This document shows, piece by piece, positions 49,817 to 64,000 of a DNA stretch of 64,000 bases. The stretch spans positions 620,001 to 684,000 of the forward strand of contig MPOA01000006.1 in NCBI GenBank assembly GCA_001899445.1, given 5' to 3'. The DNA is from Candidatus Desulfopertinax cowenii. Its GTDB lineage: Bacteria > Bacillota > Desulfotomaculia > Desulfotomaculales > Desulforudaceae. Below the pieces are notes generated by a model. The model made no database searches and was not told where the DNA came from. It saw nothing but the letters and a program-made list of their open reading frames with translations. The translations under genes were made by a program, and so were the position numbers. Each line of letters opens with the position of its first letter. Within the stretch, counting starts at the first letter, position 1.

Positions 49817-51004
49817 TTATTCTTCGCCTTCAGCCGCCTTCGAAACCGCCCAGGCCGCGTCGGTGTACTTGAACTGCGTGCTGGTCCGGTAGGTGTCGTA
49901 GGCCAGGCGGTAGTCGTCGATCAGGTGCTCGGTGAACGGCAGGCCGCACTTCTCGAAGAACTTCTCCCAGCCGATCCGCTCGGCCCAATCCCCGAGGCGC
50001 TCGTACTTGCGGGCGTCCTTCGCGTAGGCCTCGAGCACCTGCTTAACCGCCTCCACGACTTCCGGGAACCGCGGATGGTTGTTCGGCAGGTAGGGGATAA
50101 CCACCTTCGAAAACTTGGGCGGGCTGATCCGGTTGGACAGCTTGCCGCCCGCCAGTAGGACTACGCAGTCGCCCTCGCCGTCGGCCAGCGGCAGCGCGGG
50201 GCACATGGTGTAGCAGTTGCCGCAGAACATGCAGCGCTCCACCTTGATCTTGACGGACTTCTTCCCGTCCTCGGTCTTGGCGGGAGAAATGGCCGCCGTC
50301 GGGCAGGACGCGATGGCCAGCGGGATTTCGCAGATCTTCTCCAGGACCTCGTGGTCAACGGCCGGGGGCTTCCGGTGGTAGCCCAGGAGCGCGATGTCCG
50401 AACAGTGCACCGCGCCGCACATGTTCAGGCAGCAGGCCATGGAAATGCGGACCTGGGCCGGCAGTTCCATGCTGGTGAAGTGCTCAAAAACGCCGTCCAT
50501 GATCGCCTTGACCATGGAGGAGGCGTCCACGGCCGCCGTGTGGCAGTGGATGAAACCCTGGGTATGAACCACGTTGGTCACGCCCGCGCCCGTGCCGCCG
50601 ATGGGGAACTTGTAGCTGCCGGAAACGAACTTGTGCTTCCCGAGTTCTTCCTTCAAAGCTTCGACCTTTTCCAGGCTGTCGACGATGAACTCGATGTTAT
50701 TCCGGGTGGTGAAGCGAACATAGCCGTCGGCCAACTTGTCCGCGATGTCGCAGATTTCCCGCAGGTACTCGACGGTCATGAACCGCATCCCGCCGACGCG
50801 CACGGTGTAGGCCTTGTCGCCGGTTTCGGATACGTGCACCAGCACGCCCGGCTCCAGGATCTCGTGGTAGTCCCACTTGCCGTAGTTCTTCTGGATCACC
50901 GGCGGGAAGCACTGCCAATAATGGCGCGGGCCGATGTCCGTTACCCGGTTCTCCATGGGGTTGTCCGGGTTGAACCTGCCAAGTTTATCTCTCGTTAACG
51001 CCAT
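49817..51004 (-). CDS. dsrB: Dissimilatory sulfite reductase subunit beta
   Basis: Catalytic beta subunit of the alpha2-beta2 enzyme that reduces sulfite with six electrons onto DsrC. 395 residues. Siroheme and cluster cysteines lie in [16 protein letters not shown] (about residues 175-190), and the inserted ferredoxin domain has [16 protein letters not shown] (about 245-260). [17 protein letters not shown] and the C-terminal [12 protein letters not shown] are typical of DsrB. Starts 13 bases after the dsrA stop. Confidence 0.98.
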
Positions 51005-51016
51005 GCGAAAAACCTC

Positions 51017-52435
51017 CTATCTTGCGTGTCTCGACCGGTAGTCGTTGATGTCCCGCTTGAAGCCGCCGGGCACGTCCTCTTCCTTCCAGAAGATGTACGG
51101 GTTGCTCCGCGGTTCCTTGACCATCTGCGGCGCCGGCGGTACACCGAGGACGTCGCAGAATCTCTGCAGGCCCACGCGCTGGATCGTCTCACCCAGGCGC
51201 TCGCGGTTCTTACCCTCTTCCATCCACCACTCAAAGGTCTTGTCGATGATTTCCTTGATGTTGTCGTACGGCGGCTCCGCCTTCATGAACGGGATGACCA
51301 GCACCGACATCTGCGCGCCTTCCAGGATCGGCGCCTTGGCCCCGAACAGGAGGCTGACACCGGTGTCTTTGCCGGGCTTCAGCGCCCGCGGCATGGTGTT
51401 GATGCAGTGCATGCACCGGGTGCAGTTCGCGTTGTCAATCACCAGCTTGCCGCCCTCCAGGGACATGCAGCCGGTCGGGCAGCGGTTGATGACTTCCTCG
51501 TAAATGTCGAACTTGCCCCAGTCGCGGCCCTTGTGAGACCCGCCGCCGGGCGGGAATTCGCCGTTGATGTAGCCCTGTACGGCGTCCTGGTCGATCCGGA
51601 TGTCGTCCCGCCAGGTGCCGATGAAGGACAGGTCCGCGCGGGCGATGGACGCCACGCACCCGTTCGGGCAACCGTCGAACTTGAACTTGAACTTATACGG
51701 GAAGGCCGGGCGGTGCAGTTCGTCCTGGTAGTGCATGGTCATCTCGTAACACATTTCCTGGGTGTCGTACAGGGCGTACTGGCAACGCGCCTTGCCAACG
51801 CAGCATTCCGGCGTCCGCAAGTTGGAGCCGGAACCACCGAGGTCTACGTCCAGCACCTGGGCCAGCTCCTGGAAGATCGGCTCCAGCTGGTCGGTGAAGG
51901 TGCCCAGGAGGATGATGTCGCCCGTGGAACCGTGCATGTTCAGGAGACCGCTGCCGCGGTATTCCCAGAGGTCGCAGAGACCCCGGAGGAAGTCCGTGTC
52001 GTAAAACTTGCTGGGTACCTGAGCAACGCGGATGGTGTGGAAATGCGCCACGCCGGGGAACTGTTCCGGCACGTCGGAGTACCGGCCGATGACACCGCCG
52101 CCGTAACCGATCACGCCGACGATGCCGCCGTGCTTCCAGTGCGTCTCACCGTGAACATAGGACAGCTCTACCTGCCCGAGCAGGTCCTCGACCACGTCCT
52201 GGTTGATCAAGAGGTTGTCCTGCCCCAGCTTACGCCTGCGGAGCGCGTACCGCTTGGCGTCGGCCACGAAGCTGGGCCACGGGCCGCTTTCCAGCTGTTC
52301 CAGCTCGGGGATGTCGTGCTTTATCTTAAAATTTTTTTCTTCTTCTTCCGTGTAGTTCTTCAGCTCTTCATCGGTGAAAAGGCGTAGCTCCTGATAATCT
52401 AACTTCTTTTGTGGCCGTTTCGGCTCAAAAGCCAT
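51017..52435 (-). CDS. dsrA: Dissimilatory sulfite reductase subunit alpha
   Basis: Alpha subunit of DsrAB, 472 residues. The siroheme-4Fe4S ligands are in TPECCVGKARCQYAL and FDGCPNGCVASIARADLS (C-X3-C); the ferredoxin domain has NRCPTGCM and CTRCMHCINTMPRALK (about 335-375). HWKHGGIVGVIGYGGGVIGRY near residue 100 is the conserved block targeted by dsrA phylogenies. The ATG at 52433-52435 follows GGGAGG at the right distance. First gene of dsrABD, with a leader that carries direct repeats. Confidence 0.98.
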   Translation of the reverse strand: MAFEPKRPQKKLDYQELRLFTDEELKNYTEEEEKNFKIKHDIPELEQLESGPWPSFVADAKRYALRRRKLGQDNLLINQDVVEDLLGQVELSYVHGETHWKHGGIVGVIGYGGGVIGRYSDVPEQFPGVAHFHTIRVAQVPSKFYDTDFLRGLCDLWEYRGSGLLNMHGSTGDIILLGTFTDQLEPIFQELAQVLDVDLGGSGSNLRTPECCVGKARCQYALYDTQEMCYEMTMHYQDELHRPAFPYKFKFKFDGCPNGCVASIARADLSFIGTWRDDIRIDQDAVQGYINGEFPPGGGSHKGRDWGKFDIYEEVINRCPTGCMSLEGGKLVIDNANCTRCMHCINTMPRALKPGKDTGVSLLFGAKAPILEGAQMSVLVIPFMKAEPPYDNIKEIIDKTFEWWMEEGKNRERLGETIQRVGLQRFCDVLGVPPAPQMVKEPRSNPYIFWKEEDVPGGFKRDINDYRSRHAR

Positions 52436-52528
52436 ACTAATACCTCCCTCTGATAAGTACTTGAGTTGGGCCCCCAGGAACACATCAATATCCGGTTTGG
52501 CTGCACCCCCCTCCCGAAAACAGTACAA

Positions 52529-52561
52529 TTTGCCAGAACCATGCTAACCTTTGCCAGAACC
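52529..52561. repeat. 12-bp direct repeats in the dsrA upstream region (candidate operator)
   Basis: TTTGCCAGAACC occurs exactly at 52529-52540 and 52550-52561, a spacing of 21 bases or two helical turns, 94-126 bases before the dsrA ATG. Such same-face repeats suit a dimeric regulator. A weak -35/-10 pair (TTAGCA, 16 bases, TACTGT on the minus strand) overlaps them. Confidence 0.6.
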
Positions 52562-52706
52562 CCGCCTTTTTGCCCGGAGGCGATGAAATAGCGCATTCAA
52601 GCCAGATGGTATGGCGGCGCGGGCCGGGATTCAGGCCAAAAGACATGGAAAACCAACCCAGCTCCCCCAATGCGGAGCCAATCCGGTGCTGGGGGACAGC
52701 AAAGGC

Positions 52707-52735
52707 TGGATAACGAATCGCAAACGGGCCAGCAA
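52707..52735 (-). promoter_or_regulatory. Candidate dsrA promoter; description of the 506-base murA-dsrA gap
   Basis: TTGCTG (complement of 52730-52735), 17-base spacer, TATCCA (complement of 52707-52712). It would give a leader of about 265 bases that includes a stem-loop near 52660-52695 and the 12-bp repeats. The part next to murA (52736-52941) has no clear terminator and no gene. Confidence 0.5.
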
Positions 52736-52941
52736 AACTGTATACAAGACACGCCTATGATCGTCTGCAGAAAGACTTCGTGGTGTTTTCGATTATTCCT
52801 GCTTGAAAGGGGAATTTTTTTGCCGGTCCAATATTTCACAGGTGGTAGGGTTCGCCCCGGCCGATCTTAAGCGCCGATGACGAAGGTGAAGTGATTGGTA
52901 ACGCTCCCTCAGTTTTCCCGCGGCCAGGATCTCGATCCGGG

Positions 52942-54198
52942 TCACTTGCGCTCCACGTCGGCGCCCAGGCTGTTCAGCCGGGCTTCAAAGTCCCGGTAGC
53001 CGCGGGCGACGAAATGGGCGTTGTGGACCTCGGTGACGCCTTCGGCCATAAGCCCGGCGATCACCAACGCCGCACCGGCGCGCAAATCGGTGGCCCTGAC
53101 CGAGGCCCCCTGCAACCGGGGAACCCCCTCGATGATGGCCACCCGTCCCTCCACTTCGATCTGGGCGCCCATTCGCCGCAGTTCCTGGGCCACCTGGAAA
53201 CGGTTTTCAAAGATGTTTTCCACGATGATGCTGGTCCCCGGAACGGTGGACAGGAGGGTCATCATTTGGGACTGCAGGTCGGTGGCGAAACCCGGATAGG
53301 GCATGGTCTTGATGTTGATCGGCAACAGGGGCGCAGGCGTCGACACTCGGATAGAGTCTTCCCGCTCCTCCACCCGCACGTTGGCCTCCCGCAGCTTAGC
53401 GCTGAGCGGCTCCAGATGGGGCGGGATCACTCTTTCCAGGGTCACGTCCCCGCCGGTAGCCGCGGCCGCCACCATGAACGTTCCGGCCTCGATGCGGTCC
53501 GGGATGACGCTGTAGCGCACGGGATTCCCTAGCGCCGGCACCCCGTTAACCCTGATGATATCGGTTCCGGCCCCGCGGATCTTGGCGCCCATGGCGTTCA
53601 GGAAATTGGCCAGGTCGACCACCTCCGGCTCCTTGGCCACGTTTTCCAGGACGGTCTGGCCTTCGGCCAGCACGGCGGCCATCATCAGGTTCTCCGTCGC
53701 CCCTACGCTGGGAAAGTCCAGGTAGACCTTGGCACCCTGCAGCCGTCCGGGAACCCGGCCCTCGATGTAGCCGCTCCGGATGTCCAGGTCCGCGCCCAGG
53801 CTGTTTAAGCCTTTAAAGTGCAGGTCCATCGGGCGGCTGCCGATATTGCACCCCCCGGGCAGGGACACCCGGACCCGGCGCTTGCGGGCCATCAGCGGTC
53901 CCAGCAGCAGGTTGGAGGCCCGCAGCTTTTTTGCCAACTCGTGGGGAGTCTCCCCGGATACTCGCGCCGCGCCGGTGATGTGGAGCGTGTCCTCGTCGAG
54001 CCAGTATGCCCGCAGGCCCAAGCACGAGATGATCTCCAGCATCACCCGGATATCGCTGATGTTGGGGACGTTTTCGAGGATGACCTCGCTTTCGGTGAGG
54101 ATGCAGGCGCAGAGAATGGCCAGGGTGGAGTTCTTCGCCCCGCTCGCCCTGATCCGGCCCACCAGCGGCCGGCCTCCGCGCACTACCAGCTTGTTCAA
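52942..54198 (-). CDS. murA: UDP-N-acetylglucosamine 1-carboxyvinyltransferase
   Basis: First committed step of peptidoglycan synthesis (enolpyruvyl transfer from PEP); target of fosfomycin. From the TTG at 54196-54198 it has 418 residues, the normal size, opening MNKLVVRGGRPLVGRIRASGAKN with the catalytic Lys in GAKNSTLAIL. The active-site Cys is in PGGCNIGSRPMDLH near residue 117, so fosfomycin sensitivity is expected. The upstream frame reaches into the next gene but lacks family character. GGGGAG precedes the TTG. Confidence 0.95.
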   Translation of the reverse strand: MNKLVVRGGRPLVGRIRASGAKNSTLAILCACILTESEVILENVPNISDIRVMLEIISCLGLRAYWLDEDTLHITGAARVSGETPHELAKKLRASNLLLGPLMARKRRVRVSLPGGCNIGSRPMDLHFKGLNSLGADLDIRSGYIEGRVPGRLQGAKVYLDFPSVGATENLMMAAVLAEGQTVLENVAKEPEVVDLANFLNAMGAKIRGAGTDIIRVNGVPALGNPVRYSVIPDRIEAGTFMVAAAATGGDVTLERVIPPHLEPLSAKLREANVRVEEREDSIRVSTPAPLLPINIKTMPYPGFATDLQSQMMTLLSTVPGTSIIVENIFENRFQVAQELRRMGAQIEVEGRVAIIEGVPRLQGASVRATDLRAGAALVIAGLMAEGVTEVHNAHFVARGYRDFEARLNSLGADVERK

Positions 54199-54254
54199 GG
54201 CCTGCTCGTCTCCCCGCTGTTCAGTTGCTAGTTTAATATGCGCCCGGGCCCCGG

Positions 54255-55121
54255 TTATTCCTGCATGTGCGCCACCCAACGTTTCCACTCTCCGTCCAAA
54301 GTATTCAGGTCAAGGTCCAGCACCTGTTCCAACGCCTCTTCCAGGCTCGCTCCCCGGCCGAAAGCATCCAGTACCCGGATCACCGCGGGCCAACCATAGC
54401 TTTCCACCAGGAAGGTCATAATGCTGAAACTCTGGTGATAGGCCAGGTTTTGATCCTCCAGGGAATCAAAATCCGCCAACTCGGCAAAGGTATAAGCGTT
54501 TTCCAGCGGGAAGAAACGCGCCTCCCCGAAATGGAAACCGGTCAGTAGGTATTCCTGATACTGGGCAACCCCCTCGTTAAACCAGCGGGGGCAGTTGCCC
54601 CGGGTCAGGTAATCCACAAACAGGTGGACGATCTCGTGGGCCATGGGGCCTAGATCCACGAAAGCCTGGTAGTAATCTTGCTCTTCCTCTTCGGGATCGA
54701 TCCAGACGTCCGGAGACAACACCCGGATACTCCCCGCCCAGTACACGCCCACGGTGTTGGCGTCCGCCGGCCAGCCGAAACTGCGGTTCAAGCCCTCCCG
54801 GTCGGTGTACAGCAACACGGGTATTGGGCCCGGGATTTCAAAACCGAAGTTTTCGGCCAACGCCGGGTAGAAACCTTCGGCCGCATCCAGGATCATCCGG
54901 GCCTCGAGCTGTTTCCCGTCCTGGTGGAAAACAACAAACCGCTCCCCGTCCAGGGCGTTCATCGCCCGGGAATGGTACCAGGCCAAACCGCGCTTATTGA
55001 TTTCCCGGATCAGGGAATTAATATATAAAGTAGCAGCAGTGGGTAGTTTTGTAAACAGTATCGAACTGACTAGCACGACCACAACCGTTAGCTTGACTAA
55101 AAAGTGGATTCTTAGGGACAT
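54255..55121 (-). CDS. Membrane-anchored MA-type metallopeptidase
   Basis: A 288-residue protein with one N-terminal membrane helix (about 8-26) and an extracytoplasmic gluzincin domain: His162-Glu163 and His166 (AHEIVHLF), with the third ligand Glu183 in FNEGVAQYQE. This is the Peptidase_MA pattern (HExxH...E). Substrate unknown. ATG at 55119-55121 has AGGAG upstream. It lies between a TPR protein and murA. Confidence 0.85.
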   Translation of the reverse strand: MSLRIHFLVKLTVVVVLVSSILFTKLPTAATLYINSLIREINKRGLAWYHSRAMNALDGERFVVFHQDGKQLEARMILDAAEGFYPALAENFGFEIPGPIPVLLYTDREGLNRSFGWPADANTVGVYWAGSIRVLSPDVWIDPEEEEQDYYQAFVDLGPMAHEIVHLFVDYLTRGNCPRWFNEGVAQYQEYLLTGFHFGEARFFPLENAYTFAELADFDSLEDQNLAYHQSFSIMTFLVESYGWPAVIRVLDAFGRGASLEEALEQVLDLDLNTLDGEWKRWVAHMQE

Positions 55122-55281
55122 GCCTATAACTCCTCTCCTTGCCGGAGCCGTCCCTGCAACTGGCAACAAATCACAGTAGGGTGAAGGGCTCAAGACCCCA
55201 CCGCAAATTATAACCCTGTTTGTCAACCGGGGCCAAGAGGTATTTTGTGCAAAAGAAAACCGGCCACGCCACCGTGACCGG

Positions 55282-55863
55282 TCAGTTTTTCTCCCACTCC
55301 GCAATCAGTGCCCGGGCGTGCTCGGCATTGGGACCCGAGTCCGCCAGGGAAAGGAACCGCTCCAGGGCTCGTACCGCCCCCGGATAGTCTTCCTTGCCAA
55401 ACCCCAGGGTGATTCCGTACAGGTACAACCCCAGCTGGTGGTTCGGGTTGGCCTGCAGGAGAGCCTCCAACTGCTCGACCGCCCGGTCGTAGTCCTCCAG
55501 CACGAAATACATCTCGGCCAAGTCGATCCGCGCCCGCTGGTTGGACGCGTCCAGGGCCAGCACTTCCTCAAATAGGACAATGGCCTGTTCGTAATCCATC
55601 ATCCGCTTATAGTGGACAGCCAACTCCACCCGGCTGGCAATGTCCCCCGGGTCGGCCTCGACCCGCCGCTCCAACTCCTTCAACTGGCTGGCGAGTTGGT
55701 CCTGCCGGGAAACCGAATCGGGACCCTCTGCCTGCTCTTCCAGATCGCCGCCCATGCCCCATAGCCCCGCCACCGACGGGCCCACGAGACCAAAGGCAAT
55801 GACCAGGATCAGGGCCCAGAAACCGACCTTCTGCCAGGTTTTCCGCGGTCGGCGCATGGCCAT
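55282..55863 (-). CDS. Membrane-anchored TPR protein
   Basis: A protein of about 193 residues: basic N-terminus, one membrane helix (about 14-32), a linker, and three TPR units in the C-terminal part (about 75-180; VELAVHYKRMMDYEQAI, IDLAEMYFVLEDYDRAV). Probably faces the outside. Start choice (ATG 55863, ATG 55857 or TTG 55872) is uncertain because the ribosome site is weak. Neighbours are a cell-wall peptidase upstream and a metallopeptidase downstream, suggesting envelope function. Confidence 0.8.
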   Translation of the reverse strand: MAMRRPRKTWQKVGFWALILVIAFGLVGPSVAGLWGMGGDLEEQAEGPDSVSRQDQLASQLKELERRVEADPGDIASRVELAVHYKRMMDYEQAIVLFEEVLALDASNQRARIDLAEMYFVLEDYDRAVEQLEALLQANPNHQLGLYLYGITLGFGKEDYPGAVRALERFLSLADSGPNAEHARALIAEWEKN

Positions 55864-55955
55864 CACCCACAATCTAAAATCCAGGATCCGTACACTTTAA
55901 GATTATAGCATCTCGAAGCGCTATTTTCAAAACGGGCCGAGTAGATGCGATTCTC

Positions 55956-57317
55956 TTACAAATAATTCATTGGATTCCGCGGCCGCCCGTTGATGATCAC
56001 CTCGAAGTGCAGGTGCGGACCGTAAGAAAAACCGGTACTGCCCACGGCCCCGATCTGTTGCCCGCGCTGGACCTCCTGCCCCACCGAAACCACGCTGCGC
56101 GAAAGGTGCGCGTACCTGGTGACCACCCCGTTACCATGACTGAGGTCGATACAGATGCCGTAGCCGCCGGCCCAGCCGGCCCGCACCACGCGGCCGCCCT
56201 CGGCCGCCACCACCACCCGGCCGTGCGGCGCGGCAATATCAACACCGGTGTGCATGCGGCTGCCGCGCATTCCGAAACCGGAAGTTATCCGGCCCCAGGT
56301 GGGCCAAGCCAACTGCGCGCTCCCGCCGCGGGAGGCCAGCACAATCTTGGAACCCCTCACCTCCACCCGCGTCACAGGCGCCTTGATTTCCCGCGCTTCC
56401 AAGCGTTTACGCTCCACCAGCCGACCGTTCTGACGGGTCACCAGGTAGGTGACCTCCTCCTGGCCGGGCGCACCCGGCTCCAGGACCTTTCGCTGGCCGG
56501 CCGGCAGGTTGGGATCCCGCCGCACCCTGGTCTGGTAAGGGATCTCCCGGGTTTCAACCACCCGGGCGGTGGTGACCACTGTAAGGAGCGGCTTTTCCCG
56601 CGCAATGACCAACTGTTCACCGATCTGCAGCACGGAATTCTCTTTGATCCCGGGGTTCGACGCCAAAAGCCTTTCCACGGTCAAACCGTACTTCCGGGCC
56701 ACGTCCCAAAGGGTATCACCTTCGCTGACCGTATACTCCTGCACGTTTTCGATTTCTTCCCGCGCCAGCCGCACAGCCTGTTCCAGGTCCACAATTTCGT
56801 CACAGCGCACCTTCACCCCAACCAGCGCGACCTCTTCCAGAAACTCGGCCTCGGCCCCCTCCTCAACGGTGTAGGATTTTTTGACCCGGGCCAGAAACTC
56901 GCGGGCGGTCGGGTAGTCGGCGAAAACAAAATGTTTTTCCCCGTCAATAAACAAGGCTACGGCGTCCTGGGCGAATCCCAGGGCCTCGGCCAACCGGTCC
57001 TCCAGTTCGCGAACGCCGACCAGGGGAATTTCGCTGTCGCCGTGTACCCGGACCACCTTGACCCGCGCCCAGGCCACGGTTTGACCCTGAATTTCGCCGT
57101 ACCGGTCCTGTAAACCGACCAGGGCCTGATCCACGTCCCGATAATCAAAAACCCGGGCCACCGGTTCACCATCGACCGATACCGCCCAGGTTCCGTTTTT
57201 TGCCCCCAGGGCACTATTCACAAATACGGCAACACACAGCAGGAAAACCACAATACCGAGAGGATTGGGGCGTCTAACCCGAAAGGCTTTCCCGCGCTGC
57301 TGTACCCGGTACAACAA
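55956..57317 (-). CDS. Exported LysM-G5-M23 cell wall endopeptidase
   Basis: A 453-residue exported protein: signal or anchor helix (about 17-38), an N-terminal region of about 160 residues, a LysM domain (about 195-240, EYTVSEGDTLWDVARKYG in part), a G5 domain (about 245-325) and a C-terminal M23 peptidase domain (about 340-450) with MHTGVDIAAPHG and GPHLHFEVIING holding the zinc ligands. The order LysM-G5-M23 is widespread in spore-forming Clostridia. Start TTG at 57315-57317, seven bases after GGAGG. Confidence 0.92.
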   Translation of the reverse strand: MLYRVQQRGKAFRVRRPNPLGIVVFLLCVAVFVNSALGAKNGTWAVSVDGEPVARVFDYRDVDQALVGLQDRYGEIQGQTVAWARVKVVRVHGDSEIPLVGVRELEDRLAEALGFAQDAVALFIDGEKHFVFADYPTAREFLARVKKSYTVEEGAEAEFLEEVALVGVKVRCDEIVDLEQAVRLAREEIENVQEYTVSEGDTLWDVARKYGLTVERLLASNPGIKENSVLQIGEQLVIAREKPLLTVVTTARVVETREIPYQTRVRRDPNLPAGQRKVLEPGAPGQEEVTYLVTRQNGRLVERKRLEAREIKAPVTRVEVRGSKIVLASRGGSAQLAWPTWGRITSGFGMRGSRMHTGVDIAAPHGRVVVAAEGGRVVRAGWAGGYGICIDLSHGNGVVTRYAHLSRSVVSVGQEVQRGQQIGAVGSTGFSYGPHLHFEVIINGRPRNPMNYL

Positions 57318-57435
57318 TCCCCCTCCTCCCCGGACCAAAATATCACAGAGCTAAAGGGAATTGTAGCACGGATCGTCCCGGCGCGTCCAGGAAGATATTC
57401 CCATTAGCTCGCCCAATTTATTCCGGTAAAGCCCG

Positions 57436-58788
57436 CTAGCTGTTCATCCTGTTCACGGCTTGTACATATAGGGCCGCTTGCAGCCGGGAACGCATGGTTG
57501 CACAGCCCAAGCGGCTCGGCCTGAGCAGCGAGCCGCTTTCCAGAACGGCGTGGGCGTGGCAGCCCCCGCTGCAAAGGAATTTCGCCCAGCAGTCCGTACA
57601 GCCCTCCTTGGAATAGACGTGGGCGTGCCGGAAACTCTCGACCAGGTCGGAACGGAGCTCCCCCGCAAAAACGCTGCCCAGCACGAACTCCCGCCGGCCG
57701 ATGAACTGGTGACAGGGGTACAGGTCTCCCCCGGCATCCACGGCCAGATACGCATGTCCCGCCCCACAGCCCGACAGGCGCTTGGGCAGGCAGGATCCTT
57801 CGTCCAGGTCAAGCTCGAAATGGAAAAACCGGACCGCAGCGTTTTCCCGGACTAACTCCAAATATATGTCGGCCAGCCGCTCGTATTCGCGGTGCACTCG
57901 GGGCAGATCCTCCTCGCGGAGGGCATAATCGGCGTCCGGCAAGGCCACGACCGGTTCCAGGGAAATGTTGGTAAATCCCAGACCGACCAGGTAACGAAAG
58001 TCGTCGGCAAAATCCAGATTGTGCCGGGTAAAGGTCCCCCGGAGGTAGTAATAGCCCCGCGGCCCGTCCCAGGCCTCCCAGTCGGACACAAACTGCCTGA
58101 TCCGCGGGAGAACCGTCCGGTAGGACCCCCGGCCACCCGCGGTACAGCGCAGCCGGTCGTGGACTTCGGGCCGGCCGTCCAGGCTCAACACCACATTAAC
58201 GCGGTTCGCCAACAGAAACCGCCGCACCTCCGGCGTGAGCAGCAGCCCGTTGGTGGTGACCGTAAACCCTACTTCTTTGCCCGCGGCCGCCGCCCGCGTC
58301 CGGGCGTAAGCCACCGTTTCCGCGATCACCGGAAAATTAAGTAGCGGCTCCCCGCCGAAAAAATCAATCTCCACGTGCCGCCGCCCGCCGGAACGGGTCA
58401 CGAGAAAGTCCACGGCCCGCCGGGCCACCTCGGGGGTCATCAGCTGTTCGCCCGTTTCCGGCGCTCCCGCAAAACAATAGCGGCAAGCCAGGTTGCAGTG
58501 GTGGGCCACGTTCAGGCAGAGCGCCTTGACCTGCGGCGGTGGGGGCTCGTAACCCGCATGCGGATCGGGGGCGAAAAGCAGTTCTTGCGCGCGCAGTTCT
58601 TCAATTTCTGCGAGCGCCGCGGCGATTTCCGCCGCGGGATAACGCGCGCCGAGCGCCCGGACCGCTTCCCCGGACTCGGTGAACCCGCCGCACAGAAGCG
58701 CCCACACCAGCTCGTCAACCTCGTGGAGCATCTGGCTGTGGGCGTCCAGAACCAGCCGCGTTCCGCGTACCGAAAAACAATGAATCAC
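57436..58788 (-). CDS. scfB: SCIFF-peptide radical SAM maturase (thioether-forming)
   Basis: A 450-residue radical SAM/SPASM enzyme. N-terminal 85 residues form a peptide-recognition region; the SAM cluster motif is CNLACRYC (Cys98, Cys102, Cys105); FFGGEPLLNF follows near residue 144. SPASM cysteines lie in SGCGAGHAYLAVD, LYPCHQFIG and CTDCWAKFLCSGGCHAH (about 343-410). Enzymes of this group install gamma-thioether links in the SCIFF peptide, whose gene stands 55 bases upstream. Direct pairing is supported by both motifs and position. Confidence 0.94.
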   Translation of the reverse strand: MIHCFSVRGTRLVLDAHSQMLHEVDELVWALLCGGFTESGEAVRALGARYPAAEIAAALAEIEELRAQELLFAPDPHAGYEPPPPQVKALCLNVAHHCNLACRYCFAGAPETGEQLMTPEVARRAVDFLVTRSGGRRHVEIDFFGGEPLLNFPVIAETVAYARTRAAAAGKEVGFTVTTNGLLLTPEVRRFLLANRVNVVLSLDGRPEVHDRLRCTAGGRGSYRTVLPRIRQFVSDWEAWDGPRGYYYLRGTFTRHNLDFADDFRYLVGLGFTNISLEPVVALPDADYALREEDLPRVHREYERLADIYLELVRENAAVRFFHFELDLDEGSCLPKRLSGCGAGHAYLAVDAGGDLYPCHQFIGRREFVLGSVFAGELRSDLVESFRHAHVYSKEGCTDCWAKFLCSGGCHAHAVLESGSLLRPSRLGCATMRSRLQAALYVQAVNRMNS

Positions 58789-58843
58789 TACCGAATCTCC
58801 ACCAAACTTCCAGAGTAGCCATCAGGCCCGCCCGAGGCCGCGC

Positions 58844-58993
58844 CTAGTTTTTCTTCTCCTTCAGGCAGACCTGGTTGCCCACGGTGCAGGACGTCTTACA
58901 AGCCGATTGGCAGGACGTCTGGCACTCCCCGCAGGCTACTTCCTTGCGCCGCGTTAACCCGCGTTTGTTGATCGTCCGGATGTGTTTACCCAA
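58844..58993 (-). CDS. scfA: SCIFF ranthipeptide precursor (six cysteines in forty-five residues)
   Basis: A 49-residue peptide starting at TTG 58991-58993, with GGAGGG 8-12 bases upstream. It opens LGKHIRTINKRGL and contains six cysteines in the core CGECQTSCQSACKTSC plus TVGNQVC, the hallmark of the SCIFF family conserved in Clostridia. The maturase scfB follows at once. SCIFF products are among the most widespread RiPPs of Clostridia; roles in quorum sensing have been proposed. The gene is shorter than 60 codons and has a rare start, so it is easily missed. Confidence 0.95.
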   Translation of the reverse strand: MGKHIRTINKRGLTRRKEVACGECQTSCQSACKTSCTVGNQVCLKEKKN

Positions 58994-59031
58994 GCTTGCG
59001 CCTCCCTCCAGCAGTGTTTTCCAACAACCAA

Positions 59032-59664
59032 CTAGCTCACCGAAACCACTTTGAAGCCGAGGCTTTCGATCTCGGACACCAGCGGCTTGGCGTCACCCAG
59101 GCTCAACCGGAACACGAGGTGGGACCGCTCCTCATCCCGCCGTACGCAGACAACGCTGATGATGTTTATGTCCCGCTCCTTGAAAAACCGGGTGATCTCG
59201 GCCAGCACGCCGATCCGGTCCTTGGTGTCGATGACCAGCCTCGTGCCCGCCTTGCCCAACCCGAACAGCTTGGCCAGGGCCTCTATCATGTCCGTCTGGG
59301 TGACAATCCCCACCAGTTTGCCGCGGTCCACGACCAGCAGGCTGCCGATCTTGTGTTCACGCATGATCTTGGCCGCCTCCTCGAGCGGCATCTCCGGGGG
59401 GGCGGAAATCGGATCCTTGACCAGCGCCTCGCGCACGGTAACCTTGGCCAAAACGTAGTTCAACTCGTGCATGGAAAGCGTCGTGGCCGGGGACGGCGAT
59501 ACCTGCAAAAGGCCGCGCTCGGTCACCAGACCTACCAGTTTGGAATCCTGGACCACCGGCAGATGGCGCACCTTGCGCCTGGTCATGATCTCCAGGGCCT
59601 GTAAAATGGGGGTATCTGGGGTGATGGTGATTGGATTGCCTGTCATGCAGTCCCTTACAAACAT
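59032..59664 (-). CDS. CBS-CBS-ACT domain protein (AcuB-like)
   Basis: A 210-residue cytoplasmic sensor protein: two CBS domains (about 1-55 and 72-130) that bind adenine nucleotides and a C-terminal ACT domain (about 138-208, GTRLVIDTKDRIGVLAEIT in part). AcuB of B. subtilis has this architecture and influences acetoin use. The ATG at 59662-59664 opens MFVRDCMTGNPITI. Its stop is 38 bases from the SCIFF start, so it may be cotranscribed with scfAB. Confidence 0.9.
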   Translation of the reverse strand: MFVRDCMTGNPITITPDTPILQALEIMTRRKVRHLPVVQDSKLVGLVTERGLLQVSPSPATTLSMHELNYVLAKVTVREALVKDPISAPPEMPLEEAAKIMREHKIGSLLVVDRGKLVGIVTQTDMIEALAKLFGLGKAGTRLVIDTKDRIGVLAEITRFFKERDINIISVVCVRRDEERSHLVFRLSLGDAKPLVSEIESLGFKVVSVS

Positions 59665-59796
59665 GGCGATCGCCACCCTCAAAAGGTTTCGTTTATCATT
59701 ATATCCCGCGGGCGGCGCAAAGACAAGGACGCGGTGGCCCTTCAACAACAAAACCAGAGGTTCGCCCCTGGTTTAGCAAGCGGGTTTTGAAATTAC

Positions 59797-59871
59797 TGGA
59801 GCGGGTGACGGGGATCGAACCCGCAACCCCCAGCTTGGGAAGCTGGTGCTCTACCGTTGAGCTACACCCGC
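59797..59871 (-). tRNA. tRNA-Gly (anticodon CCC)
   Basis: A 75-base cloverleaf including encoded CCA. Acceptor GCGGGTG/CACCCGC, anticodon stem CCAGC/GCTGG around loop TTCCCAA, T-arm GCGGGTTCGATCCCCGT. Anticodon CCC reads GGG. Confidence 0.97.
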
Positions 59872-60040
59872 ATAAACTCAGCGTCATCCCACTGCCCAGA
59901 TAATTATACCACGTGCCTGCAAGCTCTTGCAAGCAGAGGTTCGGGAGGAAGGCAGTCGCCGAAAGCAAATCAAGACCGCTGCCCGGTCAAAAACGTAACC
60001 GCCGGAGGTTCCCACTTCCGGCGGCCGAGTTTTTCGAGTT

Positions 60041-60116
60041 TGGTGACCCCAGCGGGATTCGAACCCGCGTTACCGGCTTGAAAGACCGGTGTCTTAGTCC
60101 ACTTGACCATGGGGCC
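60041..60116 (-). tRNA. tRNA-Glu (anticodon TTC)
   Basis: A 76-base cloverleaf including encoded CCA. Acceptor GGCCCCA/TGGGGTC (one G-U pair), anticodon loop CTTTCAA giving TTC, T-arm GCGGGTTCGAATCCCGC. Located between tRNA-Gly and queA, transcribed away from queA. Confidence 0.97.
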
Positions 60117-60191
60117 ACGCCAATCACACACGCGTTTATCTTACTAAACCCCGGCGGGAATGTCAAGACACACAAGCACGCAAACTAAAAC

Positions 60192-60221
60192 TTACCGCTA
60201 AAATCAAATTTATGCTATACT
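60192..60221 (+). promoter_or_regulatory. queA promoter with extended -10
   Basis: TTACCG at 60192-60197, an 18-base spacer and TATACT at 60216-60221 preceded by TG one base upstream (TGCTATACT). Sits 61 bases before the queA ATG. Confidence 0.6.
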
Positions 60222-60281
60222 ACCCTACGGTGGCCGGCAAGAAGCGGGCAAAATGAAGTAACGTAAGGAGAGTTACAGCCC

Positions 60282-61322
60282 ATGGTGGATACAGTGGACA
60301 CAATGGAAACAAAGGCGTTCGAATACTCTTTGCCCCCGGAACTCATCGCCCAACATCCGGTTGAGCCGCGGGATTCTTCCCGGCTGTTGGTCCTGGAACG
60401 GGAAAAAAAAGCGGTGCGCGCGGATGTTTTCCGGAACGTCATTGACTACCTGAACCCGGGTGACGTCTTGGTGCTAAATGACACCAGGGTCATCCCCGCC
60501 AGGCTTCCAGCCCAGAGGCCCAGCGGGGGAAAGGCAGAGGTTTTCCTGCTCCAGGAACTGGGCGGCGGCCGGTGGGAGGCGCTGGTGAGGCCGGGGGCCA
60601 AGCTGCCGGTAGGTGCGGAAATCCGGTTGGGCGGCAAAATCCCGGTCAAGATCTTGGAACGGACGGCCGAAGGGGGTCGGATCATTCAGTTCCCTTCTTC
60701 CCACCTGGCTACGGTCGCCTTGCAAGAATTTGGGCAGGTGCCACTCCCGCCCTATATAAAGCAGCCGCTCTCCGATCCCGCCAGGTACCAGACGGTATAT
60801 GCGGGAAAGGACGGCTCGGTGGCCGCGCCTACCGCCGGCTTACATTTTACGCCCGCCCTGTTGGGGCAGATCGAGGCGAAGGGTGTAACAATTGTCTATC
60901 TTACGCTGCACATGGGCTTGGGTAGTTTCCGCCCCATCAAGGAAGAACGGCTGGAGCGACACCGAATCCCGGCCGAGTACTACCGGGTTCCGGCCTCAAC
61001 GGCCGAAAAAATAAATGCGGCCCGAAAAAAAGGAAAGCGGGTGGTAGCTTGCGGCACCGACGTGGTCCGGACCCTGGAGTCGGCGGCCGATAGCACGGCC
61101 CAGCTCCAGCCCGGGGAAGGAACTACCGACCTTTTTATCACTCCCGGTTACCGGTTTAAAATGGTCGATGTGCTGATCACCAACCTGCATCTTCCCCGTT
61201 CTTCACACCTGGTACTGGTTTCTGTTTTCGCGGGCCGGGAATTTGTCTTACAAGCCTACCGGTATGCGGTAAAAAAGAGGTTCCGGTTTTACACTTTCGG
61301 CGATGCCACCATCGTGCTCTGA
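60282..61322 (+). CDS. queA: S-adenosylmethionine:tRNA ribosyltransferase-isomerase
   Basis: Penultimate step of queuosine synthesis: transfers the ribosyl moiety of SAM to preQ1 in tRNA. The 346 residues have FEYSLPPELIAQHPVEPRDSSRLLV in part (LIAQHPVEPRDSSRLL), LVLNDTRVIPARL, the central AAPTAGLHFTPALL and the C-terminal TNLHLPRSSHLVLVSVFAG, all typical. ATG 60282 has GGAG upstream; an in-frame ATG at 60303 is also possible. Usually it is followed by tgt; here a mobile element and the convergent purA follow instead. Confidence 0.97.
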   Translation: MVDTVDTMETKAFEYSLPPELIAQHPVEPRDSSRLLVLEREKKAVRADVFRNVIDYLNPGDVLVLNDTRVIPARLPAQRPSGGKAEVFLLQELGGGRWEALVRPGAKLPVGAEIRLGGKIPVKILERTAEGGRIIQFPSSHLATVALQEFGQVPLPPYIKQPLSDPARYQTVYAGKDGSVAAPTAGLHFTPALLGQIEAKGVTIVYLTLHMGLGSFRPIKEERLERHRIPAEYYRVPASTAEKINAARKKGKRVVACGTDVVRTLESAADSTAQLQPGEGTTDLFITPGYRFKMVDVLITNLHLPRSSHLVLVSVFAGREFVLQAYRYAVKKRFRFYTFGDATIVL

Positions 61323-61327
61323 TTAGA

Positions 61328-61570
61328 TTTTGCTGAAAAAGCCTATCTATACCTCGTCGTCTGCCGTGCTGAGGCATTATCTCCGGCTACTCGAGTCCGC
61401 ACTAAGGAATGAACTCGCTCGCTCGCCTCGGGCGGCGTTAGAGGCTCGCCCGCTCCGCGGCCTCAGACAGTCGGTCGCCGCTATTCCTCGGCTTCGCTCG
61501 TTCTTTGAATAAGCTCCCAATGTGACCTCCGATAATCCTCAGCACGACAGACTGAGTTTTTCAGCAAAAC
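61328..61570. mobile_element. MITE-like element with terminal inverted repeats and 9-bp target duplication
   Basis: A 243-base element without a gene. Its ends are TTTTGCTGAAAAA (61328-61340) and the complement TTTTTCAGCAAAA (61557-61569); an inner repeat GTCTGCCGTGCTGAGG near 61357 matches the complement of 61534-61552 with one mismatch. Both sides carry CTGATTAGA (61319-61327 and 61571-61579), a direct 9-bp repeat. The left copy contains the queA stop and the right copy the purA stop. Family is not known; no similar copy is in the window. The fold-back RNA may terminate both genes. Confidence 0.85.
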
Positions 61571-61574
61571 CTGA

Positions 61575-62879
61575 TTAGAATCCCCGGCGGGCCTTTTTGA
61601 AGAACTTCGCGAGTACGATAGTCTGTTCGCGTCCGGGCCCTACGCTCACCAGGCCGACCGGCACCCCGGTCAGCTTCGCCAGCCGGGCAAGATACCCGCG
61701 CGCCGCCGGGGGAAGCCCATCGTAAGTCCGCACCCCGGTAACGTCTTCCGTCCAGCCCGGCAGTTCCTCGTAAACCGGTTCGCACTCGGCCAGCACCGAA
61801 AGCCGGGCCGGAAAATCGCTGATTTCCCGCCCCCGGTAGCGGTAAGCCCGACAGATCCGGAGCGCGGGCAACCCGCGCAGCACGTCCAGCTTGGTGACGG
61901 CCAGGTAATCGAGGCCGTTGACCCGGGCCGCGTAGCGCAGAATCACGGCGTCCAGCCAGCCGCACCGGCGCGGACGGCCGGTAGTGGTGCCGAACTCGCG
62001 TCCCGCCTCCCGCAGGAGTTCCCCCGTCTCATCGGTCAGTTCGGTGGGAAACGGTCCCTCGCCCACCCTGGTGGTGTACGCCTTGGTCACCCCGACCACG
62101 GTGTCAATCACCCGCGGGCCGACCCCCGCGCCGACCGCGGCGCCCCCGGCCGTCGGGTTCGAGGAGGTGACGTAGGGGTAGGTGCCGTGGTCGATGTCCA
62201 ACAACGTGCCCTGCGCCCCCTCGAAGAGGATGTTTTTGCCGGCCCGGGCCGCCTCGTGGACCAGGAGCGAGGTGTCCCGCACGTAGGGGCGCAAAAACTC
62301 GGCGTAGGCCAGGTAATCCCGGGCCACCTGTTCCGGCTCGGGTCCGTCCACGCCGTGCATCCGCCGCAATACCTCGGCCTTGCGCCACGCCATGCTCTTC
62401 AGGGCCGCGGCCGCTCCTTCCTCCAACAGGTCGACCACCCGGAACCCTTCCCGGGCGTACTTGTCGGTGTACACCGGCCCGATGCCCCGGCGCGTGGTCC
62501 CGAGGCGCCGCAAACCGTCGGGACAATCCTCTTCCAGTTCGTCACACAACCGGTGATAGGGCATGATCACGTGGGCCCGCTCGCTGATGTAAAGCGCGGC
62601 CAGGCGCCGCCCGTCTGCCGTCAGCGATTCCAGTTCCCGGCGCAGAACTTCGGGATCGATCACCACCCCGTTACCGATCACGCAGACTTTCCCGGGATGC
62701 AAAATGCCCGAAGGCACCAGGTGCAGTTTGAATTCCCGCCCGCCGGCCACCACGGTATGGCCGGCGTTGTTGCCCCCCTGGTAGCGGACGATCACGTCCG
62801 CTTTCTCGGCCAGGTAATCGGTAAGTTTGCCTTTCCCCTCGTCTCCCCACTGGGCACCAACCAAGACTACGGTGGACAA
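61575..62879 (-). CDS. purA: Adenylosuccinate synthetase
   Basis: First step from IMP to AMP: IMP + GTP + aspartate. The 434 residues have the P-loop QWGDEGKGKLTDYL at residues 10-23, NNAGHTVV near 38, the IMP loop RRGIGPVYTDK near 130, and the C-terminal PVGLVSVGPGREQTI. The stop lies inside the 9-bp repeat bounding the MITE-like element. It is 14 bases downstream of the flavoprotein gene and probably cotranscribed. Confidence 0.97.
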   Translation of the reverse strand: MSTVVLVGAQWGDEGKGKLTDYLAEKADVIVRYQGGNNAGHTVVAGGREFKLHLVPSGILHPGKVCVIGNGVVIDPEVLRRELESLTADGRRLAALYISERAHVIMPYHRLCDELEEDCPDGLRRLGTTRRGIGPVYTDKYAREGFRVVDLLEEGAAAALKSMAWRKAEVLRRMHGVDGPEPEQVARDYLAYAEFLRPYVRDTSLLVHEAARAGKNILFEGAQGTLLDIDHGTYPYVTSSNPTAGGAAVGAGVGPRVIDTVVGVTKAYTTRVGEGPFPTELTDETGELLREAGREFGTTTGRPRRCGWLDAVILRYAARVNGLDYLAVTKLDVLRGLPALRICRAYRYRGREISDFPARLSVLAECEPVYEELPGWTEDVTGVRTYDGLPPAARGYLARLAKLTGVPVGLVSVGPGREQTIVLAKFFKKARRGF

Positions 62880-62893
62880 TCAACACGCCTCCC

Positions 62894-64000
62894 CTACACT
62901 CTGCTCAGAATCTCCCGGGCGACAATCACCCCAGAAGCGGAGGCCTGCACCAGGCCCCGCGTAACCCCCGCCCCATCCCCCACTGCGAACAGGTTGGCGA
63001 CCGGGGTTTCCAGCCGTTCGTTTAAGGCCAGGCGGGACGAATAAAACTTGACCTCCACCCCGTACAACAGGGTGTGGCGCGCATAAACGCCGGGAGCAAT
63101 CAGGTCCAGCGCCTTCAGCATCTCCACGATCCCCAAAAGGTGCCGGTAGGGAAACACCAGGCTCAGGTCCCCGGGCGTAGCCTCGGGCAGGGTCGGCGTC
63201 ACGAACCCCCGGGCGACCTTTTTCCGGGTGCTCCGCCGCCCGGCGGAGAGATCCCCGAGCCGCTGGACGATTACCCCTTCCCCGAGGAGGTTGGCCAACC
63301 GGGCGATGTAGCGCCCGTAGGCGATGGGCTCCTTGAAGGGCTCGGTGAAGCTCTTGCTGACCAGGATCGCGAAGTTGGTGTTGTTCGTCTTGTTGTAAGC
63401 GTGGGTATGGCCGTTGACGGTGATCAGTCCGTCGTTATTCTCCAAGACCACCTCGCCGTACGGATTCATGCAGAAGGTCCGCACCTTGTCCTCAAAGGCG
63501 CGGGAGATATAGGTACACTTCAACTCGTAAAAGATCCGGGTCAGGGGCTCCAGCACCACCGCCGGCAGCTCCACGCGCACCCCGATATCCACCGGGTTCG
63601 TGGCGATGGGCAGCCCCAAGCGCTGGGCCTCCCGGGTCAGCCATTCAGCGCCCTCGCGGCCCGGGGCGGCGATGACGTATCGCCCGTGAATCACCTCGCC
63701 GTCGGTAGTTTCCACGCCGACCACCCGGTGATCGGCGATGACCATCTGGTGCACGGTGGTATCGGTCCGAATTTCCACGTTCTTTTCCAGGTGTTGATAC
63801 ATTAACTGCAGCACCTCGCCGCAGCGCCCGGTGCCCAGGTGCCTGATGGACAGCGGCACCAGCCGCAGCTCGGCCCGGGTGGCCTTCTTCTGCAGTTCTT
63901 CGAACTCGTCCTGGTCCTTGGGTCCGTACACCACGTCGGGAGCGCCGTACTCCAGGTACAGGCGGTCCACGTAGGCGATCAGCTCCTCGAGGACATCCCG
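62894..64000 (-). CDS. FAD-dependent dehydrogenase (COG2509-like), N-terminus outside window
   Basis: The C-terminal part (about 368 residues) of a flavoprotein; the frame remains open at base 64000, so the N-terminal FAD-binding GxGxxG is not seen. Visible blocks: a middle region with VIAAPGREGAEWL (dinucleotide-fold end) and the C-terminal FAD motif LFAVGDGAGVTRGLVQASASG, where Asp contacts the cofactor. FMNPYGEVVxENN-type residues (CMNPYGEVV) fit the family of uncharacterised FAD-dependent dehydrogenases. Substrate unknown. Confidence 0.85.
   Translation of the reverse strand, partial: RDVLEELIAYVDRLYLEYGAPDVVYGPKDQDEFEELQKKATRAELRLVPLSIRHLGTGRCGEVLQLMYQHLEKNVEIRTDTTVHQMVIADHRVVGVETTDGEVIHGRYVIAAPGREGAEWLTREAQRLGLPIATNPVDIGVRVELPAVVLEPLTRIFYELKCTYISRAFEDKVRTFCMNPYGEVVLENNDGLITVNGHTHAYNKTNNTNFAILVSKSFTEPFKEPIAYGRYIARLANLLGEGVIVQRLGDLSAGRRSTRKKVARGFVTPTLPEATPGDLSLVFPYRHLLGIVEMLKALDLIAPGVYARHTLLYGVEVKFYSSRLALNERLETPVANLFAVGDGAGVTRGLVQASASGVIVAREILSRV

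Follow-up and report, generated by a model that had tools for sequence, protein, structure and literature searches.

An ordinary member of the SCIFF ranthipeptide family in Candidatus Desulfopertinax cowenii and a family-wide comparison of the threonines proposed to bear its crosslink

Peptide and maturase belong to the SCIFF families

The stretch of DNA analysed here, hereafter the window, covers 64,000 nucleotides of Candidatus Desulfopertinax cowenii. Two adjoining genes of the window, scfA and scfB (Table 1), form, almost certainly, a standard SCIFF ranthipeptide pair. SCIFF peptides are described in reviews as widespread in Clostridia and tied to signalling. The initial annotation had proposed a SCIFF precursor next to a SCIFF maturase, to be checked by a search of the 49 residues against the SCIFF profile. 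In profile searches, the peptide scored 74.7 bits against TIGR03973 (curated cut-off 50) and 78.2 bits against PF13165 (curated cut-off 27). The scfB product reached 493.1 bits against the SCIFF maturase model TIGR03974, for which the cut-off is 425. Each gene is above its curated family cut-off and the proposal is borne out. The traits of the family are also present: in a family marked by six cysteines in some 45 residues, the 49-residue peptide has its six cysteines and the SCQSACKTSC core, and scfA lies 55 bp upstream of scfB on the same strand.

The product of scfA is LGKHIRTINKRGLTRRKEVACGECQTSCQSACKTSCTVGNQVCLKEKKN, with cysteines at positions 21, 24, 28, 32, 36 and 43. Like CteA of Clostridium thermocellum and Tte1186a of Caldanaerobacter subterraneus, it has six cysteines with the family spacing, a KHIxT leader and an adjoining maturase. 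Moreover, Cys32, Thr34 and Thr37 occur at the residue numbers reported for both peptides. Some variations are observed as compared to other SCIFF sequences. The linker between leader and core lacks one codon that is present in most relatives. In addition, the genus of the window and one sister genus have alanine in place of glycine directly before the first cysteine (VACGEC versus GGCGEC).

Table 1. Features of the window in order of position
Feature	Coordinates	Strand	Evidence or remark
dsrA	51050..52303		
scfB, SCIFF maturase, radical SAM/SPASM, 450 aa, GTG start	57436..58788	-	TIGR03974, CteB match, Cys motifs
scfA, SCIFF precursor peptide gene, 49 codons, TTG start	58844..58993	-	TIGR03973 and PF13165 matches, synonymous-rich conservation
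Shine-Dalgarno sequence GGAGGGAGG, 7 nt 5′ of the scfA TTG	59001..59009	-	direct sequence reading
CBS-CBS-ACT domain protein, directly upstream of scfA, 38 bp gap	59032..59751	-	PF00571 and PF01842
Promoter-like site TTGTCT-17-TATAAT, upstream of the CBS-ACT/SCIFF/scfB run	59698..59726	-	consensus match only
tRNA Gly	59797..59871		
tRNA Glu	60041..60116		
queA	60282..61322	+	

The best solved relative of the scfB product is CteB (5wgg/5why), with an E-value of 1.3e-127 over residues 1-444. The two proteins align over their full length, differing by the GTG start and by small insertions and deletions only. The radical SAM CX3CX2C motif of CteB is kept (CNLACRYC, residues 98-105), as are the SPASM cysteines (CX2CX5CX3C, residues 397-410); cysteines 333, 341, 359, 397, 400, 406, 410 and 429 all align with CteB. 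We considered whether the SCIFF-like frame might instead stand beside an orphan maturase of another family, of the ScfB-related not_ScfB type, for which the peptide would not be a substrate. The scfB product does match the corresponding look-alike model, NF040492, with 415.4 bits. However, this score is far under the cut-off of that model (855), whereas the TIGR03974 cut-off is passed. The adjacency of peptide and maturase in nearly all order-level relatives compared, as well as the closeness to CteB, also argues against an orphan enzyme, which we regard as very improbable. A standard SCIFF pair is the reading retained. The genome contains one SCIFF gene and one above-cut-off maturase gene; a second copy of either was sought in it and none was found.

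The scfA frame, its start and its conservation

The initial annotation did not give the strand of the gene. On the minus strand, the scfA frame runs from a TTG at 58993..58991 to a stop at 58844. The real frame, the ribosome site, the six cysteines and the adjoining radical SAM/SPASM gene that had been claimed are all confirmed on that strand. In the relatives, a similar G-rich or purine-rich ribosome site is found 5′ of most aligned SCIFF starts.

The aligned start codon is TTG in all eight members of the family, window included. In other relatives, outside the family, it is often ATG or GTG, and also TTG. The presence of ATG or GTG at the aligned position supports the TTG as the likely start of scfA. 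A TTG start as a special trait of the SCIFF gene was considered and rejected: the adjoining maturase uses TTG about equally often (19 of 45 loci in the same lineage, as compared to 22 of 43 for SCIFF).

In order to measure conservation, the 23-residue core of each same-family relative was compared with that of the window. Codon differences per relative were synonymous in 7 to 12 cases and non-synonymous in 0 to 1. Because synonymous changes prevail to this extent within the family, the alignments indicate that the core is under strong coding constraint. The cysteine spacing pattern occurred once in the six frames of the window. That scfA would be a chance cysteine-rich open frame and no gene, as its shortness and TTG start might suggest, can be practically dismissed in view of the two profile matches above cut-off, the strong Shine-Dalgarno site, the synonymous-rich conservation, the presence of SCIFF in 58 of 60 relatives and the absence of the cysteine pattern from 50 shuffled windows.

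Neighbourhood of the locus

A gene coding for a CBS-CBS-ACT domain protein lies directly upstream of the SCIFF gene in the window, in 7/7 same-family relatives and, elsewhere in the order, in one further family. It is probably co-transcribed with scfA and scfB. Its true start is probably an internal ATG near position 59664; the corresponding open reading frames of the relatives start at or near MFVRDCMT or MFVQDCMT. On the other side, the block SCIFF-scfB-M23 peptidase-TPR-peptidase-murA is kept within the family and across most of the order. Because of this conservation, the block indicates that a standard locus was probably inherited vertically.

Among the neighbours of scfA that were examined, none was recognised as coding for a dedicated exporter or a leader peptidase. 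An Rfam search over positions 50000-64000 gave no riboswitch, the two tRNAs of Table 1 being the only matches. These tRNA genes and queA are located between purA and the CBS-ACT gene, in the interval 59797-62879. At this place, queA was found in none of the purA-bearing relatives compared.

Two genomes show other arrangements. In G016, one of the relatives, the SCIFF gene and the maturase gene are on separate contigs (loci L127 on G016:C12 and L139 on G016:C8), and the SCIFF locus is without the usual neighbour block. Locus L138 (G059:C22) codes for a strong SCIFF maturase (562 bits) and its upstream-adjoining gene is unrelated; SCIFF was sought in this genome, which is 92% complete, and was not found.

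Distribution among relatives

SCIFF is near-universal in the relatives (58 of 60). In a sample of 399 genomes from across the phylum, 314 gave a SCIFF match, and there was no match in 14 control genomes. All seven same-family relatives carry the gene between the same neighbours and with a TTG start. It is also present in Desulfosporosinus acididurans and in a Desulfotomaculum MAG. The description of the organism as a sulfate reducer is consistent with the dsrA gene of the same window, which supports sulfite/sulfate reduction.

Two other statements of the initial annotation did not hold. Firstly, the gene had been expected to be left unannotated. TIGR03973, which belongs to the set used by NCBI for protein naming, and PF13165 both detect the peptide well above cut-off. 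A short, TTG-started SCIFF gene is not hidden from an annotation using these models. Secondly, a SCIFF-producing sulfate reducer had been presented as a useful addition to the family, a view contradicted by the relatives listed above, including D. acididurans and the Desulfotomaculum MAG. Since the pair sits in a standard, near-universal and apparently vertically inherited locus, SCIFF is to be expected in a sulfate reducer. A literature search combining ranthipeptide and Desulfotomaculum returned nothing. Overall, because nearly every relative carries the same peptide, the SCIFF of the window adds an ordinary case to a family already well described.

Proposed chemistry and role

By homology to CteA/CteB and to Tte1186, we infer that the pair would perform the gamma-thioether chemistry of the family. 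The donor Cys32 and both candidate acceptors, Thr34 and Thr37, are present in the peptide. The CteB structure shows the leader bound to the RRE part of the enzyme and a substrate cysteine in contact with an open auxiliary cluster (PMC8326336). In the proposed mechanism, the ScfB-type maturase would recognise its substrate through an RRE-type part at its N-terminus, on which the N-terminal leader of the peptide (KHIRTIN...) would dock. A 5′-deoxyadenosyl radical, generated by the radical SAM cluster, would then abstract a hydrogen from the side chain of a threonine, probably Thr34. Finally, the thiol of Cys32, held on the open auxiliary SPASM cluster, would be joined to this threonine as a gamma-thioether.

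The product would be expected not to be an antibiotic. According to reports on C. beijerinckii mutants, of which PMC8102284 gives a summary, SCIFF plays a part in quorum sensing and in sporulation. Such mutants of other clostridia faintly suggest that the SCIFF of the window may take part in regulation tied to these two processes. As spo0A is present in the genome, a link with sporulation is at least possible.

Thr34 and Thr37 as candidate crosslink sites

In SCIFFs, Cys32 is the donor of a gamma-thioether. Thr37 was given as the acceptor in the first report and Thr34 later, a discrepancy that a 2021 review calls unclear (PMC8326336). SCIFF cores were compared across 201 loci, some of them duplicates of one another, which gave 79 distinct cores; in the pattern used for counting, cysteines one to four were fixed, as was most of the SAC motif. 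Thr34 is invariant in 79/79 distinct cores, though it sits in a nearly wholly invariant stretch, so that its constancy alone proves nothing. Thr37, on the other hand, is replaced by glycine in six of the 79. The corresponding loci are L028, L032, L050 and L153-L159, the first three having been retrieved via the adjoining maturase.

Because glycine has no gamma carbon to take the bond, peptides with Gly37 cannot form a Cys32-Thr37 gamma-thioether. Therefore, of the two assignments, Cys32-Thr34 alone could hold for all SCIFFs, provided that the Gly37 pairs are functional. On this comparison of sequences, we lean towards Cys32-Thr34, and not Cys32-Thr37, as the ring common to the whole family.

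Five-cysteine variants also occur. Position 36 is leucine or isoleucine in five loci (L004, L130, L131, L200 and L201), so Cys36 is dispensable in some lineages.

Discussion

The find itself is of little weight: about four fifths of the genomes sampled in the phylum have a member of this family, and the window adds one more. If true, a common Cys32-Thr34 ring would bear, by comparison, on the disagreement left open in the 2021 review; this is a statement at the level of the family, of which the peptide of the window is one member. Comparison of the cores may thus help to decide which threonine bears the SCIFF crosslink, with the Gly37 peptides as natural test cases.
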